Below, piece by piece: positions 1 to 20,532 of a DNA stretch of 20,777 bases. The position numbers were made by a program, and so were the translations under genes. Location: the IMG/VR virus record IMGVR_UViG_3300043773_000085, positions 1-20,777 of that record, one strand, 5' to 3'. The notes under the pieces were generated by a model. That model saw nothing but the letters and a program-made list of their open reading frames with translations, had not been told where the DNA came from and ran no database searches. Numbering within the stretch: the first letter of the stretch is position 1; each line of letters starts with the position of its first letter. The stretch is from a virus.

Positions 1-1249
1 GCAAATCGTCGTTAGCGCTAGATGTGTCAACAATTACAGGTGTTGTGGTAATGCTTGCGCTAATTGCGCCAGTCTCAGCATCAAGCTGAAGTGAATGCTG
101 GGCGGTACGCTTTAAATCGTTTGTGCTTGTAGGCAAAGCCCGCCATGATCGAAGCCACTTTTGCACCGAGCCAGCGTCCGAGAACACGTTCAGGTCAAAC
201 GCGTAAATGTTACCAAGTTCATGGTCGCCCACAACAATTTCGTTGCTAAACGACATTTGGCAGTTTGAACGGTGGCGGGTAAAGCTGCCATTGATGAACG
301 CGGCCCGTTCGTGCCAAAGTGATGTGGCAACGTCAAAAACCCATGTGCTGTTGGCCGAAGGAAAAATTAAGACATAAAACGAATGACCGTCTTGCTGGTA
401 AGTGTAGGCAATAGCATCGCTCATGTTGGCGTATTGCTGAATTTGCCATTCAACTGCATGAGTAGAGATGCGCTGCGCAGTGTATCCGTTGGCGCGGTAA
501 ACAATACCTTTTCCACGGGCGTCAGCACCCAACCAAAAAATGCCGTTGTCTAATTTGGCAACAGAAAACGCGGCAATACAGCCTATTTCGTTAAATGCGC
601 CTTGAACGGGGCTAAGTGGAAAATCAAGACCGCCTGAGTTGTACCAAACTTCAACGGTGTTAGTGCCAAACAACCAAGCTTCGCGGTGATCCACAAGAAT
701 CGACACCAAGCCGTCAGGAGAGCCTTCAGCGCTTGCAAATTCAAGCGGGTCGATGGATGTACCGTCTAGCAAACTTGTGACCCATAAACGCTGGCTATTG
801 GGTTCGTTGAACACAAAATAACCGTCCAAATAACCCACAGTGACGGCGCCGGGGAAATCAGGATCGTCAATCTGCTTAAATTCAAGCGTCAAGCTGTTGT
901 AAATAAAGCTAGGGCCATTGCAAGCAATGAACAGCTGCGTCCCGTTGTCCGACATGCTGACAGGGCCAGCAGAGCCTGAAACAGTGCCGATGGCAGAAGC
1001 ACCCCAAATTGAAGTAATTTTGTACAGCGTTTCACCAGAAACAGCGTACCCATACCCACCAAACTGCCACAGGCCGCGAATGGGGCCGTCGCCCATGTTA
1101 GCAAGAAGGCGCAATCCGGGGGCGCGGTTTAAAAACCCCGGCTCTTTACCGCCTTCGGGTATGGCCTCGGGAAACAAATTGACCATGCGGCTGTCTGCCG
1201 CATTGACGCTGCGGGCTACATACGATGACCCAAGGATCGGCGTTTTCAT
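1..1249 (-). CDS. P22 gp10-like packaged-DNA stabilisation / tail hub protein (3' end outside window)
   Basis: The frame is open from the ATG at 1249 to the window edge (416 codons), so the C-terminus is missing. The product resembles the P22 gp10 family, which in P22 (about 470 aa) joins the gp4 adaptor to the tail needle and keeps packaged DNA inside the head. Visible signs are the N-terminal stretch with RMVNLFPEAI, the core SILVDHREAWLFGTNTVEVW and repeated short beta-strand blocks of the kind seen in beta-propeller proteins. The start overlaps the stop of the upstream adaptor gene as TGATG, and no separate Shine-Dalgarno is seen, so translation is probably coupled. The order adaptor then gp10 matches P22. 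The family call rests on recognised sequence and on synteny. Confidence 0.88.
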   Translation of the reverse strand, partial: MKTPILGSSYVARSVNAADSRMVNLFPEAIPEGGKEPGFLNRAPGLRLLANMGDGPIRGLWQFGGYGYAVSGETLYKITSIWGASAIGTVSGSAGPVSMSDNGTQLFIACNGPSFIYNSLTLEFKQIDDPDFPGAVTVGYLDGYFVFNEPNSQRLWVTSLLDGTSIDPLEFASAEGSPDGLVSILVDHREAWLFGTNTVEVWYNSGGLDFPLSPVQGAFNEIGCIAAFSVAKLDNGIFWLGADARGKGIVYRANGYTAQRISTHAVEWQIQQYANMSDAIAYTYQQDGHSFYVLIFPSANSTWVFDVATSLWHERAAFINGSFTRHRSNCQMSFSNEIVVGDHELGNIYAFDLNVFSDAGSVQKWLRSWRALPTSTNDLKRTAQHSLQLDAETGAISASITTTPVIVDTSSANDDL

Positions 1250-1965
1250 CAGTAGTTGCCAGCGTATATGTTAAAGCGTTGACGATTTGACACAATTGCG
1301 TACGGCATTGACATCACGTCATCTGGGTTGTTGATGCGCTTCAAGTTGCGCTTGCTTGTCATAGCGATGCGCTTTACTTGCTCACTTGGCTCAATGCCAA
1401 ACTCGGGCGCAATTTCCATTGCCAAGTTATAAGTAAACGCTCGCAAATAGCCTGGCGGAAACAACATTTGCGTTGCCAACGTAGCAGGTTGAGTTAGTTT
1501 TTCAACAGAAATAAAGTGCCATTCCAAGTCCCGCGTAGGTTGCGGGTATACCGTCATGGTAAAATTGGGGTATGTGTTATTGACAAAAATAACTTGCGGG
1601 TATGTGGACGTTACGGTCTTAACCGCAATGCCGTCATACTGTTGCTGATTGATAAACTTAATGCCAAAAGACACGTTTGTGCCTGGATCACGGTAATAAG
1701 TTGCATCGTCTAGCAACACTGGGCGCAGGCCCACAAAGTTGCCAGTTGGGCCAAGCGTTCGTGTAATCTGGCCCGCAGGCCAAGTAAACATTTGATCTTG
1801 TGTGGCAAACACCGAAAGTCGCTCGGTATTCCACGAATCAATCATTTGATCGAGCGCCGTCAAGGCGTCGGTTGACATATCCGCCGTAGGTGTTTCACCT
1901 TCAGCCAGTACACCTAGCAAACGCAATGCTCGGTTAATTTGATCGCCAGCGGTGTACGTTGCCAT
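1249..1965 (-). CDS. P22 gp4-like head-to-tail adaptor
   Basis: A 238-aa protein resembling the P22 tail accessory factor gp4, the ring that binds the portal and starts the tail after packaging. P22 gp4 is about 166 aa, so this one is longer. The N-terminus (GDQINRALRLLGVLAEGETP) and the following ALDQMIDSWNTERL helix are typical of this adaptor group. The C-terminal half has a helical FPPGYLRAFTYNLAMEIAPE segment. The start has AAGG eight bases upstream. Its stop overlaps the start of the gp10-like gene. Both the sequence and its place between coat and gp10 support the call. Confidence 0.88.
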   Translation of the reverse strand: MATYTAGDQINRALRLLGVLAEGETPTADMSTDALTALDQMIDSWNTERLSVFATQDQMFTWPAGQITRTLGPTGNFVGLRPVLLDDATYYRDPGTNVSFGIKFINQQQYDGIAVKTVTSTYPQVIFVNNTYPNFTMTVYPQPTRDLEWHFISVEKLTQPATLATQMLFPPGYLRAFTYNLAMEIAPEFGIEPSEQVKRIAMTSKRNLKRINNPDDVMSMPYAIVSNRQRFNIYAGNY

Positions 1966-1967
1966 AC

Positions 1968-2153
1968 TTAGACCTTTTCAATAATCACTTTTCTACGGCG
2001 CTTAACTTCCAGCACGTTTACAGGAGCCGCTTCAGGTTCAAAAGGCGTATCTAGATTGTAGCGTGCCCAGCCATTTTTTTCATCAGCAACAGCCTCAAGT
2101 TCCATTGTGGCCACTTTAGCGCCATGAATTGGATGTTTGAGATAAATGTTCAT
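1968..2153 (-). CDS. Small conserved phage protein, function unknown
   Basis: A 61-aa protein with the pattern HPIHGAKVA, then an acidic helix, then EKNGWARY, and a basic end (KRRRKVIIEKV). Short proteins with an HP-HG start and a K-GW core occur near structural genes of many phages, from memory, but I know of no role. It ends two bases before the adaptor start, so the two are likely co-translated. The ATG has no clear Shine-Dalgarno, and a terminator-like hairpin lies just upstream, so it may depend on read-through or on a promoter I cannot see. Confidence 0.7.
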   Translation of the reverse strand: MNIYLKHPIHGAKVATMELEAVADEKNGWARYNLDTPFEPEAAPVNVLEVKRRRKVIIEKV

Positions 2154-2184: not shown

Positions 2185-2637
2185 TTAGGATGCTACTAAT
2201 GGAACAGAATACCACTGAGTAGTAGAAGACGCTACCAACAATGAACTGGTAAGGTTTGTAATGCTATACGCACCGTTAGCCGCAACCGCATTGATTGCCC
2301 CGCCAGTGGCGGGATAAATATTCAACGCGCCAGCAGCGGTGTTTTTAACAATAATTACCATACCAGCTACCGCTGTAGGCAAAATTACGCCTTTAGTACC
2401 ATCTGCCGCCGAAACGACATTGATACCCTCAGCTAGTGCAGCAGCATTGCCTTGAGTACTGCCCGCCGCCGCAACAGCAGCAACAGGAAGGCGAATAGCG
2501 CCGGTTGACGTGCCGGTTACGGTCGTAGCGGTTATGGTTGTAGCGGTCACTGTTTGCAACGCTGACGCGCCGGTTACGGTTACGCTTTCAAATTCAGGGT
2601 CGCTAAACGCGACGCCTACAGCTTTTGTATTTGGCAT
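2185..2637 (-). CDS. Probable structural protein with shared N-terminal leader
   Basis: A 150-aa protein. The chosen start (ATG at 2637, MPNTKAVGVAFSDPEF) has AAGGAAAC just upstream. A longer frame begins at 2673 but runs through a terminator hairpin, so it is rejected. The body is rich in T, V, A and G with short VTATT-like repeats and then predicted beta strands, which suits a virion surface or decoration protein. The first 16 residues nearly match those of the protein at 13550-13951, though the bodies differ. It lies between a putative decoration gene and the 61-aa gene, with a hairpin on either side. A structural role is inference; no specific family is recognised. Confidence 0.72.
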   Translation of the reverse strand: MPNTKAVGVAFSDPEFESVTVTGASALQTVTATTITATTVTGTSTGAIRLPVAAVAAAGSTQGNAAALAEGINVVSAADGTKGVILPTAVAGMVIIVKNTAAGALNIYPATGGAINAVAANGAYSITNLTSSLLVASSTTQWYSVPLVAS

Positions 2638-2649
2638 GATGTTTCCTTT

Positions 2650-2672
2650 AAAAATGAGGGCCAAAGCCCCCA
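2650..2672 (-). terminator. Intrinsic terminator between the 142-aa and 150-aa genes
   Basis: Read on the minus strand, TGGGGGC, a TTTG loop and GCCCTCA form a seven-pair stem with one G-T wobble (2655-2672), followed at once by TTTTT (2654-2650). This is a good factor-independent terminator, placed after the stop at 2682 and just before the ribosome binding site of the next gene. Confidence 0.75.
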
Positions 2673-2681
2673 CTTAAGTTT

Positions 2682-3110
2682 TTAAGCCACGCGATAGATT
2701 GAGTACGCTGCATCACCTGTTTTGCGGAAACGAAACGTGCCAGATGTGTTGCTGGTTTTAGTCAGCGAATCTTGCACCGTGTCGTTACCAACAAGGGTGT
2801 TACCCGTGCCAGCGGTAAAAACTACATCATTTGCTGCATTGTCACCAATATTGATAAATGAGCAGTCAAATGTTGAGCCAACTTTAAGGCTAGTAAATGC
2901 AGCGTCAAGCAATGCGCCTGTTGGGAACACATAGGCTCCCGCGTCTGTGCCGCCTGAGTCCATGGTACACACACCAGCAGCTAAATTTTCTGCGGTGATA
3001 GTAACAGCCGCGCCAGTTAACGCGACAGGTGCACTAGTGTTAGAAAAACTGATTTCGCCGAGATTGCCGTCACCAACTTGGTAACCGCTTGCGCCATTAG
3101 GTAAAGCCAT
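2682..3110 (-). CDS. Probable capsid decoration or head-associated protein
   Basis: A 142-aa protein directly downstream of the coat gene. The start has AAGGA upstream (AAGGAAATTATC then ATG). The sequence is small-residue rich, with VALTGAAVTITAENLAAG, a central DAAFTSLKVGSTFDCSFINIGDNAANDVVFTAG... block and a C-terminal RFRKTGDAAYSIYRVA. The repeated pattern of turn and hydrophobic strand fits a beta-sandwich surface protein. A gene right after coat often encodes a decoration or stabilising protein. The function is inferred from position and composition. Flanking terminators suggest it has its own transcript level. Confidence 0.72.
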   Translation of the reverse strand: MALPNGASGYQVGDGNLGEISFSNTSAPVALTGAAVTITAENLAAGVCTMDSGGTDAGAYVFPTGALLDAAFTSLKVGSTFDCSFINIGDNAANDVVFTAGTGNTLVGNDTVQDSLTKTSNTSGTFRFRKTGDAAYSIYRVA

Positions 3111-3137
3111 GATAATTTCCTTAAAAAGATGTTAAGA

Positions 3138-3156
3138 CGAAAGGGGCCGAAGCCCC
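3138..3156 (-). terminator. Hairpin with UUCG tetraloop after the coat gene
   Basis: On the minus strand GGGGC-TTCG-GCCCC forms a five-pair GC stem closed by the very stable C(UUCG)G loop (3143-3156), followed by TTTCGTCTT. It lies just past the coat stop (TAA at 3166-3164). The U-run is interrupted, so it may terminate partly, or protect the coat mRNA 3' end. Confidence 0.7.
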
Positions 3157-3163
3157 GTTCAGA

Positions 3164-4375
3164 TTAGCCCCACATGCGGCAAGCCATTTGTGGGCGGATT
3201 GTGCTGAAACCGTACAAAACGTCAATACGGCAAGGCATCCGGTCATTGTTAATATCGTACTGGCGAACCACACGCAAACTAATACCGTTGTGAACAGCGC
3301 GGGCAGCCATGTCAACACCTTGGGGCAACAACAAGTCAGCAGTTGCAAACGTGATGGCATCCTTGTGATAGATCAAGTTTTGAGCGTACTGAGTAGAAGC
3401 AGCGCCCACAAAGGTCACAGTACCGCCAGTTGCAGGCAACACGTCCACAGTAGCCAACGCATGTGCGGCGGAGTACATAGGAGCAACAGTTACAGTCCAA
3501 GTACCAGATGAGGCCGTAACGGTAGTCAAAGCCACAAATTGGAACAAAGAGCCTGTAGATTCACGAGTCTGTGGGTTAACAGCATTGCAACCGCTGACAG
3601 TGAACACGTCACCAGCATTGATTGTTGTTGACACAGAACCTTGCTCCAACAGAATGGTCGATGAACCTTCGGCAGTCACGCCAGGGGTTTTAACCAGTGT
3701 AGTTGAGGTGGTGAGGCGTGAGCCAGTTGTGTGTTGCTTGATAGACTGAGACATGTTGACTTCTTCAAAGCCCAACACGCCAGTGCCCATCATGCCGTTT
3801 TTAAACTGCTTGCTGATAGTGTCGGTAGGGTTAAACAAACCCTTCATGCCTTCAACCAAACCAGCGTTAGCGGCTGGGTTGACGGTGGCATAACGTGGAG
3901 ACATGCTGGCAGCGTTTTCGTTCAACTTTTGCTGGGCTTGCAACAGCACCAAAGAAGTTGAAGGCGTAGTGCCAGGTGTACCAACGGTGTTACCAATGGT
4001 TTTGTACGCATTGGCAACGTCAGCGTCAATGCTAGAGGCCAACTGGCTGATACGTGGCTTTAGGACACGTTCTGCAAAGTCGTCCAACTGCATGGTCAAT
4101 TCAGCGGATGTGAAGTTAACACCAATGTGCTTTTGGTTTGCCACAGTCAAAGTGGTGAACTGTTCGTTGTCGTCCTGAACTTGCAGGGCGGCGCCGTCAG
4201 TAACCAAAGCGCGGTCGGGCAAACGAATACGCAATGTAGAGCCAATTTTGGCACCTTCAACAGCAAAAGAATCGTCATACTGGCGGTTCACGTTGCGTGT
4301 CAAAACGAGGTTGTTTTCCAAGATCTCCAACGCTTTGCGTGTGATCATGTCAATCGTCAGAATACTATTAGACAT
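3164..4375 (-). CDS. P22-type major capsid (coat) protein
   Basis: A 403-aa coat protein of the P22 gp5 family (P22 coat is about 430 aa), the HK97-fold shell subunit. Typical features are the start (MSNSILTIDMITRKALEILE), the NNLVLTRNVNRQYDDSFA stretch, IGSTLRIRLPDRA, and the spine-helix-like region around FTSAELTMQLDDFAERVLKP. The C-terminal part ends DVLYGFSTIRPQMACRMWG. The start has a strong AAAGGA six bases upstream. The scaffold gene is immediately upstream and the decoration-like gene downstream, in normal P22-like order. A stable hairpin follows the stop. Confidence in the family is high. Confidence 0.93.
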   Translation of the reverse strand: MSNSILTIDMITRKALEILENNLVLTRNVNRQYDDSFAVEGAKIGSTLRIRLPDRALVTDGAALQVQDDNEQFTTLTVANQKHIGVNFTSAELTMQLDDFAERVLKPRISQLASSIDADVANAYKTIGNTVGTPGTTPSTSLVLLQAQQKLNENAASMSPRYATVNPAANAGLVEGMKGLFNPTDTISKQFKNGMMGTGVLGFEEVNMSQSIKQHTTGSRLTTSTTLVKTPGVTAEGSSTILLEQGSVSTTINAGDVFTVSGCNAVNPQTRESTGSLFQFVALTTVTASSGTWTVTVAPMYSAAHALATVDVLPATGGTVTFVGAASTQYAQNLIYHKDAITFATADLLLPQGVDMAARAVHNGISLRVVRQYDINNDRMPCRIDVLYGFSTIRPQMACRMWG

Positions 4376-17476: not shown

Positions 17477-19481
17477 TGCCAGAGTTCTCCAAAACCATGG
17501 TTTTTTTCATCAAAGCATCTAAACATTCCTTAAATCTGCGTGAATTCAAACCATGCCCCTTGGCGCTTTCCCGCCATTGATCGTAATCAACCATGGCCGC
17601 AAACCCCTCAATCCCGTCACTGGCCCGCTTGGCTTCTATAGACACTAAAGAGTTAAGTGCAATGCGTTGGTTACCCGATAAGAGCGCCCGTTTCTGGATA
17701 TTCCCCATCAAGCCGGAGATGTCCACAGCCGTCAAATATGCACCCTTAACTGGCAACCCATGCTTGTCTTGGATGGGCAAATCAACCTGTGTGATCTGAA
17801 AGTTCTTAGGTGCAGGCATTTCTGCATCCTTCATCTTTTTGGATTCAAAGGCTATGGTTTTTGTGCCTGCATCCAACTGGCAGCGGTATTCCGCATCCAG
17901 TGCGCCCTTCAATGCCGTTGATCCCCGACTGCGATCCTTATCTGCCACACCTGAGTGGTGAACCACCAGAACGCAACACTTCCATGGCTGGCGAAGGTAA
18001 ACATCAAGGTGCTGAATGAACGCATTCATGTCCTGCGTGCTGTTCTCGTCACCCCCATGGTTTCTGGCCAAGGTGTCAATGATGATCATGCTTGGTGTTG
18101 TCCCTGCCTGCTGCGACAACTCTTTGATGGCCTCCGCCACCACTGCCGCCTCGGTTGCGTCATACAGCTGCGCCGCACGATGGCTCTTGTACAGTGGCGC
18201 ACCATCAAGGGTCTGGCCATTGCCTAATTGCCATGCCTTGAACCGCCTAGCAAGGCCATTGTGCCCCTCGCCGGCAATATAGAACACCGAGCCCTGCTTG
18301 ACCTCATGGCCATGCCATGGACGGCCAGTGGCTACACAACAAGCTATGTCGATGGAGACAAAGGACTTACCGCCGCCAGGGTCACCGAACACTTGTGCTA
18401 GGCTATCGCTCTCAATGTAGTCATCTACGATCCAGTTAATCTGGCTTAACTCCAAGCTATCAATTCTGGAAAACTCAAACGCCAGTTTGTCCCGCATGGG
18501 GCCAGCCACGCGCTCAATCTGCTCTTTGACCGCATCCAGACCTTGCAGGCAGTGCAGGTCATTGAAGTCTGTTGGTTTGTTGTCCACCATGTCAGACTCC
18601 CCAAATGATGGGTACACAATCTCCCCAAACACCAGAGCTGCCGCAGCCCTGCCCTTCGCAACACCAGGGTTGCCCTCGGTGAATTGGTCATTGTCCGCGC
18701 CAATGATAATCTTGGAGCCTGGGAACATCTCCTTCGCGCTCTTGGCTACCTTGGCCAAGTTCCCACAATCAAACGCCACCAAGACTGTGTAGTCTGTCGC
18801 CTCATGGATACTGGCGCAGGTTGCAAACCCCTCACCAATGAACACAATCTTTCTATTGCCCCTGAGTTCATAAAACCCACCCTCGATCTTGCCACCCTTC
18901 AAGAACCGCTTGTTGCCATCAGCATCAATGGTCTGGTACGAAAGAATCTCACCACCTTGGTTAATCACTGGCACAACAAGCCTGCCTGCACGATCAATCT
19001 TGATCCCATGGGCTTGAATGTGCTTCCTGACAAGGTATGGATGGTCATCACTGGCATCTGCGTACGTCCCAACCTCATCCTCTGCCCTCTCTGCTGCCAC
19101 CGCCTGACTAGCCAGCCTGTCAGCTTCCTTTTTGGCCTTGACATCTGCTACCCACTTATCATGTTCAAAGCGCTCAGTGAACGACATAGCACGGCCAGTA
19201 TCTGCCACCCATTTACTCTCAAACACTGGCTCTTTCCAACAGCCTGCAATGCCAACTGGCACTTTGCCACTGGTGTGCAAGATGTACCAACCATCCAATG
19301 CACCCTTCTTGGAAGATACATGAGCCACCCTGTGAATCTCACCATCAGCCACAATCTGGTCTTTGATCACAAGACCCGCAGCCTCACAGTGACGGCGAAA
19401 GCCTTCCTCTGGGTTGATCAGGTCTTGGCTCTCTGTTGCAACGGCAAAGCCATTGGGAAATATTGTTGTTAGGTTAGTCAT
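17433..19481 (-). CDS. Toprim-RepA-like primase-helicase
   Basis: A 682-aa replication protein. The N-terminal third has features of plasmid/phage primase-like regions (GWYILHTSGKVPVGIAGCWK around residues 65-83). A Toprim domain follows, with VFIGEGFATCASI (Glu217), VLVAFDCGN, and IIIGADNDQ (Asp263, Asp265). The C-terminal half is a RecA-type hexameric ATPase of the RepA/AAA_25 kind: Walker A GDPGGGKS at 366-373, Walker B SMIIIDTLAR near 464-473, and VVHHSG...RGSTALKGALDA at 507-530. It would unwind DNA and perhaps prime synthesis. Start ATG at 19481 overlaps the methyltransferase stop (TAATG). The last codons (MYRTVPK) come from two copies of the repeat array. Confidence 0.9.
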   Translation of the reverse strand: MTNLTTIFPNGFAVATESQDLINPEEGFRRHCEAAGLVIKDQIVADGEIHRVAHVSSKKGALDGWYILHTSGKVPVGIAGCWKEPVFESKWVADTGRAMSFTERFEHDKWVADVKAKKEADRLASQAVAAERAEDEVGTYADASDDHPYLVRKHIQAHGIKIDRAGRLVVPVINQGGEILSYQTIDADGNKRFLKGGKIEGGFYELRGNRKIVFIGEGFATCASIHEATDYTVLVAFDCGNLAKVAKSAKEMFPGSKIIIGADNDQFTEGNPGVAKGRAAAALVFGEIVYPSFGESDMVDNKPTDFNDLHCLQGLDAVKEQIERVAGPMRDKLAFEFSRIDSLELSQINWIVDDYIESDSLAQVFGDPGGGKSFVSIDIACCVATGRPWHGHEVKQGSVFYIAGEGHNGLARRFKAWQLGNGQTLDGAPLYKSHRAAQLYDATEAAVVAEAIKELSQQAGTTPSMIIIDTLARNHGGDENSTQDMNAFIQHLDVYLRQPWKCCVLVVHHSGVADKDRSRGSTALKGALDAEYRCQLDAGTKTIAFESKKMKDAEMPAPKNFQITQVDLPIQDKHGLPVKGAYLTAVDISGLMGNIQKRALLSGNQRIALNSLVSIEAKRASDGIEGFAAMVDYDQWRESAKGHGLNSRRFKECLDALMKKTMVLENSGMYRTVPKVEPSEPV

Positions 19482-20304
19482 TAGATTCTTTCACTGAGTA
19501 ATTTCCATGCTGTTGCTGCCACTTTTGGAACCTGTCCGTTGCCAATGGCTTTAAGTCTGTCCACTCTTGCGGCCACCCCATCAGCCACTCTACCCACTCT
19601 GGGTTCAACGGCCCACCAGCCTGTGCCGCTAGGGGGATCTCGTTCCTCTTGTACTCCGAGGGATTTCCACCGTCTTTGTGCATTCTGGCCACTGGTGTTG
19701 GCCATAGTCTTGGATTGTTCACTTGATCCACCAGTCTGATCTGGATGGGCTGGCCGTTCTGGCGATGATTCTGGCCCTGCTTGAGCAATCCAGATGTCCC
19801 CCCCCCCCCCGTGTCTGGCGTGCGCCACAATCCACGCTCTGTCCCTTTGATGCGGTGCGCCGACATCGACTGCTCCCATAACAGTCCATCGCGCGTCATA
19901 CCCGAGACTGGAAAGGTCTGCAAGGACTCGTCCGAGTCCTCGATGAATGAGCATTGGGCTGTTTTCCACGAATACGAATCTGGGTCTAACTTCGCTAACC
20001 ACCCGCGCCATGTGATACCACATTGAGGACTGCTCTCCGTCAAGCCCTGCGCCTCGGCCTGCAATGGAAATGTCCGTACAGGGAAAGCCGCCCGAAACAA
20101 CGTCAACAATTCCTCGCCATGGCTGTCCGTCAAAGGTTTGAACGTCATCCCAAATCGGGAAAGGCGGCAAAACTCCGTCATTTTGTCTGGCGACAAGTAC
20201 GCAAGCTGCGTAGGGTTCCCACTCGACTGCGCACACTGTTTGCCATCCAAGCAAGTGTCCCCCAAGTATTCCCCCACCAGCGCCTGCGAAAAGAGCCAAC
20301 TCAT
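19474..20304 (-). CDS. Overlapping +1-frame ORF co-extensive with the methyltransferase
   Basis: A 276-aa frame (start MSWLFSQALVGEYLGDTC) shares nearly all its DNA with the methyltransferase. Its ATG directly follows the upstream TGA and lies eight bases after GGAGG (20313-20317), a better spacing than that of the methyltransferase GTG. It stays open for 276 codons and ends 5 bases inside the next gene. Its middle (LSRFGMTFKPLTDSHGEELL, then SYSWKTAQCS and SGMTRDGLLWE) and its end (LNPEWVEWLMGWPQEWTDLK) match phage proteins that I remember as deposited separately. Either this is a true overprinted second gene or a recurrent ORF-calling artefact. No known fold is evident. Confidence 0.5.
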   Translation of the reverse strand: MSWLFSQALVGEYLGDTCLDGKQCAQSSGNPTQLAYLSPDKMTEFCRLSRFGMTFKPLTDSHGEELLTLFRAAFPVRTFPLQAEAQGLTESSPQCGITWRGWLAKLDPDSYSWKTAQCSFIEDSDESLQTFPVSGMTRDGLLWEQSMSAHRIKGTERGLWRTPDTGGGGTSGLLKQGQNHRQNGQPIQIRLVDQVNNPRLWPTPVARMHKDGGNPSEYKRNEIPLAAQAGGPLNPEWVEWLMGWPQEWTDLKPLATDRFQKWQQQHGNYSVKESND

Positions 20305-20308
20305 TCAC
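19481..20308 (-). CDS. C5 cytosine DNA methyltransferase
   Basis: A 275-aa enzyme that transfers a methyl group from AdoMet to cytosine in DNA, probably to protect phage DNA from restriction. Residues count from the GTG at 20308. Motif I is LALFAGAGG (about 4-12), motif IV GGFPCTDIS with catalytic Cys77, motif VI FVFVENSP (Glu115; usually ENV), motif VIII HQRDRAWIVA (about 153-162), and motifs IX/X near RVDRLKAIGNGQVP (about 248-261). The region between VIII and IX, where target recognition lies, is short (about 85 aa) and contains four Gly from the G13 run. GTG overlaps the upstream stop (GTGA); a longer frame to 20443 lies inside the regulator gene and is rejected. Confidence 0.9.
   Translation of the reverse strand: MNELALFAGAGGGILGGHLLGWQTVCAVEWEPYAACVLVARQNDGVLPPFPIWDDVQTFDGQPWRGIVDVVSGGFPCTDISIAGRGAGLDGEQSSMWYHMARVVSEVRPRFVFVENSPMLIHRGLGRVLADLSSLGYDARWTVMGAVDVGAPHQRDRAWIVAHARHGGGGDIWIAQAGPESSPERPAHPDQTGGSSEQSKTMANTSGQNAQRRWKSLGVQEERDPPSGTGWWAVEPRVGRVADGVAARVDRLKAIGNGQVPKVAATAWKLLSERI
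19798..19810. repeat. Homopolymer run: 13 C (13 G on the coding strand)
   Basis: Thirteen C in a row lie inside both overlapping frames, which both read four Gly there. Such runs slip during replication. At the present length both frames stay open through the run. The run could also be a sequencing length error, but the methyltransferase motifs on both sides are in one frame as written. Confidence 0.9.
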
Positions 20309-20520
20309 GTTGCCTCCACCAGTTCTGGCCAAATAGACTGCCAACTGCCTTGGCACACCATCTTGCGAGTAAGCCGCCCTTCGCTCTGCTGCTCCACTCT
20401 CACGGCCTCCCAAGCTGACATCTCTCTGCGCCCTGTCAGGCACTGGTAGAGATACTGCTCATTTATGCCAACTTTTTCTGCCAGTTGTCGGCGCTCATCT
20501 GGGGGTATTTGTGTGTTCAT
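20305..20520 (-). CDS. YdaS/Cro-like HTH regulator
   Basis: A 71-aa DNA-binding protein. MNTQIPPDERRQLAEKVGIN, then EQYLYQCLTGRREMSAWEAV, is a helix-turn-helix of the YdaS/Cro type (recognition helix around EQYLYQCLTG), and the end (CQGSWQSIWPEL) is common in this group. It probably binds the three CTAGCA-N3-TGCTAG sites just upstream and so controls its own operon and the divergent gene. ATG at 20520 is preferred over a TTG at 20529. No strong Shine-Dalgarno is visible. The stop TGA both overlaps the methyltransferase GTG and abuts the ATG of the overlapping frame. Confidence 0.82.
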   Translation of the reverse strand: MNTQIPPDERRQLAEKVGINEQYLYQCLTGRREMSAWEAVRVEQQSEGRLTRKMVCQGSWQSIWPELVEAT

Positions 20521-20532
20521 AGGACACAAAGT

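Follow-up and report, generated by a model that had tools for sequence, protein, structure and literature searches.

M.EcoHK31I is a YGGCCR C5 methyltransferase composed of two polypeptides, and its 176-aa beta subunit is encoded within the alpha gene in a different reading frame; M.EaeI is likewise a two-polypeptide enzyme. One published account places motifs I-VIII and X of M.EcoHK31I on the large subunit, together with a predicted target-recognition domain (TRD), while the small subunit carries motif IX (PMC3404938). M.AquI, another two-chain C5 enzyme, is split in the variable region and carries both motif IX and motif X on its small subunit (PMC3404938). Alternative-frame proteins have also been described within phage methylase genes, and in actinophage methylases of the ShiLan type the hidden product is an HNH endonuclease, a mobile insertion in the third frame (PMC11855218).

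Here we describe a locus in the virus record IMGVR_UViG_3300043773_000085, the whole 20,777 bases of which constitute the window analysed. With a probability of about 0.8, this locus would encode one C5-cytosine DNA methyltransferase as two subunits from the same bases, an alpha subunit (M) and a beta subunit (H). M would provide the SAM-binding and catalytic motifs I-VIII as well as motif X, while H, in the +1 frame, would provide motif IX and probably also the part that recognizes the target. Both chains would start at GTGAATG from one ribosome-binding site and assemble, presumably as a heterodimer, into an active enzyme that may mark the phage DNA against host restriction. Such an enzyme would resemble M.AquI in existing naturally as two chains, but would differ from it in having motif X on M rather than together with motif IX on the small subunit.

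Two co-extensive frames under selection

Two full-length frames are open on the same strand, with the starts and stops that an earlier, sequence-only reading of this DNA had assigned to them, and they are preceded by a start region:

19481..20308, minus strand: M (alpha), the C5-methyltransferase frame, 275 aa, GTG start at 20308
19474..20304, minus strand: H (beta), the +1 frame co-extensive with M, 276 aa, ATG start at 20304
20302..20308, minus strand: double start GTGAATG, the GTG of M followed 4 nt on by the ATG of H, sharing bases with the TGA of an upstream ORF
20313..20317, minus strand: GGAGG, the putative Shine-Dalgarno sequence, 4 nt before the GTG and 8 nt before the ATG
20305..20529, minus strand: upstream ORF of 74 codons, its stop directly abutting the ATG of H

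Since H starts 4 nt downstream of M, its second codon position falls on the wobble base of M, an earlier observation that the ORF offset confirms. In family profile searches M matched PF00145 (E 1.5e-30) and phrog_363 (E 1e-69), and H matched phrog_1008 (E 8.8e-23), a family labelled DNA methyltransferase. The upstream ORF looks similar to Cro/CI by eye.

The start region is conserved among relatives. Of 103 distinct loci with a long H, 91 have an ATG, GTG or TTG 4 nt before the H ATG, the remaining 12 having an in-frame M start further upstream, and the H N-terminus reads MSW in 94 of the 103; across loci, the modal spacing from the Shine-Dalgarno core to the H ATG is 8 nt. A single ribosome-binding site probably serves both starts, and in the window the overlap of the upstream TGA, the M GTG and the H ATG next to one GGAGG (20302-20317) suggests translational coupling of three genes.

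Several comparisons indicate that H is a real protein. The +1 stop rate in four control genes of the window was 3.5% per codon, such that 276 open codons would be expected by chance with a probability of about 5e-5. Frequent +1 stops or random residues in homologues, which the sequence-only reading had named as evidence against a hidden gene, were not found: in 59 aligned loci, the H frame continues from its ATG, without a single internal stop, until it reaches a stop codon of its own close to where M ends, and its changes are conservative. Synonymous-codon permutation of M produced 6.6 +/- 2.1 H-frame stops per gene, with no stop-free shuffle in 1,180. At M identities of 65-75%, H identity was 55%, versus 31% under the permutation null and 37% in the +1 frame of neighbouring control genes. 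The stop counts, permutation nulls and control genes rule out a chance open frame.

Because locus pairs are non-independent, the constraint and conservative-change figures are descriptive contrasts carrying no P values: differences at four-fold degenerate sites in M amounted to 0.33 versus 0.61 in controls, about half the neighbouring-gene rate; changes at M-silent sites had a mean H BLOSUM62 score of -1.34, versus -2.02 for the other possible bases, and were the more conservative in 97% of pairs; and 1.0% of these changes gave H stops, versus 7.5% for alternative bases. The same conservative-change contrast was only small in control genes (-1.99 versus -2.10). Silent-site constraint extends along most of M, being weak only at about codons 151-200 and extreme (0.06) at codons 226-250, because the motif-IX-like segment of H there overlies the M lead-in to motif X (19553-19606). 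The proposal that H can be selected without harming the enzyme, via the wobble offset, needs modification: those wobble sites are strongly constrained and H does not change freely on them.

The M and H frames were also always found together. A genome scan with the H alignment returned 80 loci, from Proteobacteria, Verrucomicrobia, Patescibacteria, Actinomycetota, Synergistaceae, Oscillospiraceae and others, and H lies in +1 on an M frame in all 92 loci of the combined set (80 genome and 12 phage). No stand-alone H was detected among these 92 loci, and the possibility that H is a stand-alone gene was rejected. When IMG/VR was scanned with H as the only query, 447 relatives were identified; the M frame was also present in 80 of the 80 kept, and in nearly all of those whose match includes the starts, M begins 4 nt upstream of H. 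So as not to depend on H-based searches only, the M profile alone was run against 299 genomes (E <= 1e-40), and 12 of 12 M matches carried H in +1. A plasmid search added eight further records annotated as cytosine methyltransferase. Comparison of the loci, including the codon alignment and constraint analysis that the sequence-only reading had proposed, showed both frames to be under protein-level selection.

An H frame that is open and conserved only because M, or the DNA or RNA sequence itself, is constrained, with no H protein made, is very improbable. Some similarity does arise from the M motifs alone, with canonical C5-MTases scoring up to 27 bits in +1 against the H profile. However, these canonical genes, selected with Pfam in other genomes, are interrupted by 5-37 stops in +1 and none contained an H, whereas dual loci score 90-400 bits, avoid stops, conserve the start and end of H, and show a conservative pattern of change at M-silent sites that is not seen in control genes. 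Similarity in +1 from M motifs alone was ruled out by the canonical controls and the conservative-change test. It is close to certain, from these sequence comparisons, that the same 830 bases encode two different proteins, and the full-length overprinted gene first suggested from the window is backed by its homologous loci, the absence of stops, silent-site constraint and conservative hidden-frame change. Outside small viruses it is unusual for two conserved proteins to overlap almost completely on the same strand, and in this case the two products seem to be parts of a single enzyme.

Annotation of these loci is uneven. Both frames are annotated in Paenibacillus phage Shelly (L091:2317-3354 and 2501-3205), most records annotate the methyltransferase only, and in Pseudomonas phage phPA-G (L084:2501-3229) the H frame alone is annotated, as hypothetical. 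The arrangement occurs in many bacterial phyla and in phages, yet records usually annotate one frame, and consequently many genes labelled 'DNA cytosine methyltransferase' may be half of a dual-coding pair; the annotated frame expressed alone could give an inactive protein.

Some individual loci depart from the common form. A 4.4-kb contig (L024; IMGVR_UViG_3300032318_001741) carries two dual-coding copies back to back, at 569-1288 (minus) and 1361-2150 (plus), which are divergent (about 47% identical in H) and may be real or an assembly chimera. A prophage copy in the E. coli PCP07014 chromosome (L288:1501-2262) bears the annotation of methyltransferase pseudogene; it contains an internal stop, and the H frame is also interrupted by a stop nearby. 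In four genome loci (L188, L194, L205 and L214) M seems to end soon after motif VIII while H is still long; these loci could be decaying or contain sequencing errors, or they could represent a variant whose motif X lies elsewhere.

Methyltransferase motifs in M and a motif-IX-like segment in H

The sequence-only reading took the methyltransferase to be complete, and in this respect it has to be corrected. Motifs I, IV (PC), VI (EN), VIII and X are conserved in the M alignment (A2), and the M profile matched HhaI with E 2.7e-30, but motif IX is absent from this alignment, a TRD was likewise not encountered in the same chain, and the matches of M to Pfam and to solved structures, C5-MTases included, end at about residue 168. 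The two conserved C-terminal segments overlie each other:

19552..19608, minus strand: motif-IX-like segment of H, LNPEWVEWLMGWPQEWTDL, in which P, W, G and W are invariant in 108 H proteins
19526..19606, minus strand: conserved segment of M, EPRVGRVADGVAARVDRL, with motif X (KAIGNGQVP), over the motif-IX-like segment of H and the residues that follow it

The C-terminal pattern of H, LNPxWVEWLMGWPxGWTD, has P235, W240, G243 and W248 as its invariant residues, and we take this block to resemble motif IX of C5-MTases. The H profile matched the beta proteins of tandem split phage methyltransferases (Eagle gp77, Heather gp36 and Wildflower gp5), which have a motif-X-like GNGV at their end, with 29-32 bits, versus 8 for the best of 900 shuffles, and in HH comparison of H with canonical MTases the alignment fell on motif IX, at a level that was not significant. 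The absence of motif IX from M, the motif-IX-like end of H, the matches to the tandem beta proteins and the motif split of M.EcoHK31I together lead to the assignment of M as the putative alpha and H as the putative beta subunit of one enzyme, a split-enzyme function that is well supported by the sequence comparisons.

H on its own, modelled from 108 sequences, folded poorly (pLDDT 60), and a fold search with this model gave no match. In the predicted structure of a natural fusion of the N-terminal half of M with the C-terminal half of H (M1-H2, contig L017), M1 was modelled with confidence as a large domain like that of HhaI (E 1.3e-14, TMq 0.54); the H2 part was mostly below 50 and had no confident docking on M1, and the model is therefore uninformative on H2 as a recognition domain.

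H might instead be a real overprinted protein with a function other than methylation, for example in anti-restriction or regulation, with M acting alone or with another partner. This would be consistent with the lack of any H match in Pfam, NCBIfam or PDB and of a confident fold, but it is quite unlikely given that H never occurs apart from M across the 92 loci, that M is without motif IX, and that the H C-terminus matches the tandem betas.

A G tract of variable length

A homopolymeric run lies within both frames of the putative two-subunit enzyme:

19798..19810, minus strand: G13 tract (C13 on the plus strand), in both frames and encoding Gly in both, just after motif VIII

The tract is present in 56 distinct related contigs at lengths of 10-17 (10 G in 2 contigs, 11 in 9, 12 in 12, 13 in 16, 14 in 12, 15 in 4 and 17 in 1). 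In most of the M/H family the tract is absent and both frames are intact. These lengths constitute a frame-changing polymorphism within a coding region, subject to homopolymer-calling error. With 10 or 13 G both subunits would be intact, with 12 or 15 G the N-terminal half of M would run into the C-terminal half of H, and with 11 or 14 G the reverse would apply. Among 49 classifiable contigs, 15 have both proteins intact, 18 join the H N-half to the M C-half and 16 join the M N-half to the H C-half, in agreement with equal thirds (P = 0.87), and in the swapped states both halves of both frames are still conserved. Close relatives differ in this respect: L062 and L131, with 99.7% identity over 3.4 kb, have different frame states, and L099 and L103 have 14 and 12 G with no substitution over 3.4 kb.

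These patterns are suggestive of a phase-variable switch acting on both subunits. A single slip would be expected to disable both at once, and since no chain or pair of chains in the swapped states would hold motifs IX and X together with I-VIII, loss of activity is the likeliest effect. We consider the chances about even that the hypermutable tract is a three-state switch, in which a slip turns both subunits off or makes chimeras (M1-H2 and H1-M2), diversifying phage DNA methylation in the population. If so, it would be an unusual phase-variation device, hitting two genes together.

Every tract locus comes from a metagenome contig, the tract forms the end of six of the 56, and homopolymer length is the weakest point of short reads; sequencing or assembly error, with a true tract that keeps both frames, is for these reasons a real alternative explanation of the length differences. 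We nevertheless regard it as rather unlikely, as the lengths are spread over 10-17 instead of one value +/-1, the frame states are equally common, and runs of at least 10 G are kept in the 56 contigs, whose 387 kb contain just a single further G/C run of at least 9. It is similarly doubtful that RNA polymerase or the ribosome slips on the Gs and so yields all frame combinations from any genome, making genomic length irrelevant: the equal state frequencies are as indifference to frame would predict, and conservation of both halves of both frames in the swapped states would also fit, but most of the family has both frames intact without any tract.

Comparison with known systems

Tandem relatives of the locus were recognized in actinophages, where annotated 'DNA methylase' gene pairs (L284:1420-2515, L285:1402-2455 and L286:1291-2242) are tandem split C5 methyltransferases with the beta gene in +1. 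In Mycobacterium phage Eagle, gp77 lies in +1 to gp78 and contains repeats of a WPTP-like type, together with LNAAFSEWMMGWEEGWV, which resembles motif IX, and GNGV, which resembles motif X. In both the Eagle gp78/gp77 and the Streptomyces phage Heather gp35/gp36 pair, alpha stops once motif VIII is complete. These pairs resemble M/H in having a beta protein in +1 that is homologous to the C-terminal half of H, but they overlap by only about 22-32 bp and carry motif X on beta, not alpha. They are likely less overprinted relatives of the M/H locus.

Other arrangements also exist. In a short-H form, H begins at about M codon 20-60 and +1 stops occur only before and after H. Genes 55/56 of Paenibacillus phage Shelly belong to the same family and include an H-type +1 gene inside the methyltransferase, annotated by the depositors ('g55 internal gene'), although this H starts about 60 codons into M and M is longer; no literature on the function of Shelly 55/56 was found. 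The tandem, short-H and full-length forms suggest stepwise overprinting, in which a frame shift after motif VIII may have split the gene, with beta then growing upstream and alpha downstream over each other. The three forms offer a testable route to extensive overprinting.

The ShiLan-type methylases share with M/H a protein hidden in an alternative frame of a phage methylase gene. H differs in being co-extensive and conserved with the enzyme and in matching no nuclease family, and an identity as a hidden HNH or homing element (PMC11855218) was rejected on its co-extension with M and the lack of a family match.

Our literature search found no work on phase-variable phage methyltransferases or on the M/H overlap as a family. 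Compared by description, M.EcoHK31I is the closest known enzyme, and on that basis a two-polypeptide enzyme with a separate motif IX is already known. Its large subunit, like M, has motifs I-VIII and X and is without motif IX. Its beta subunit is shorter, at 176 aa, whereas H spans all of M (276 versus 275 codons), and its TRD has been placed in the large subunit, whereas recognition is here proposed for H. The descriptions of M.EcoHK31I that were consulted mention no double start, no G tract and no comparably wide spread. Within the literature searched, four features appear to be new: an overlap over the full length of the genes, the breadth of its occurrence, a double start that serves both frames, and a tract of variable length.
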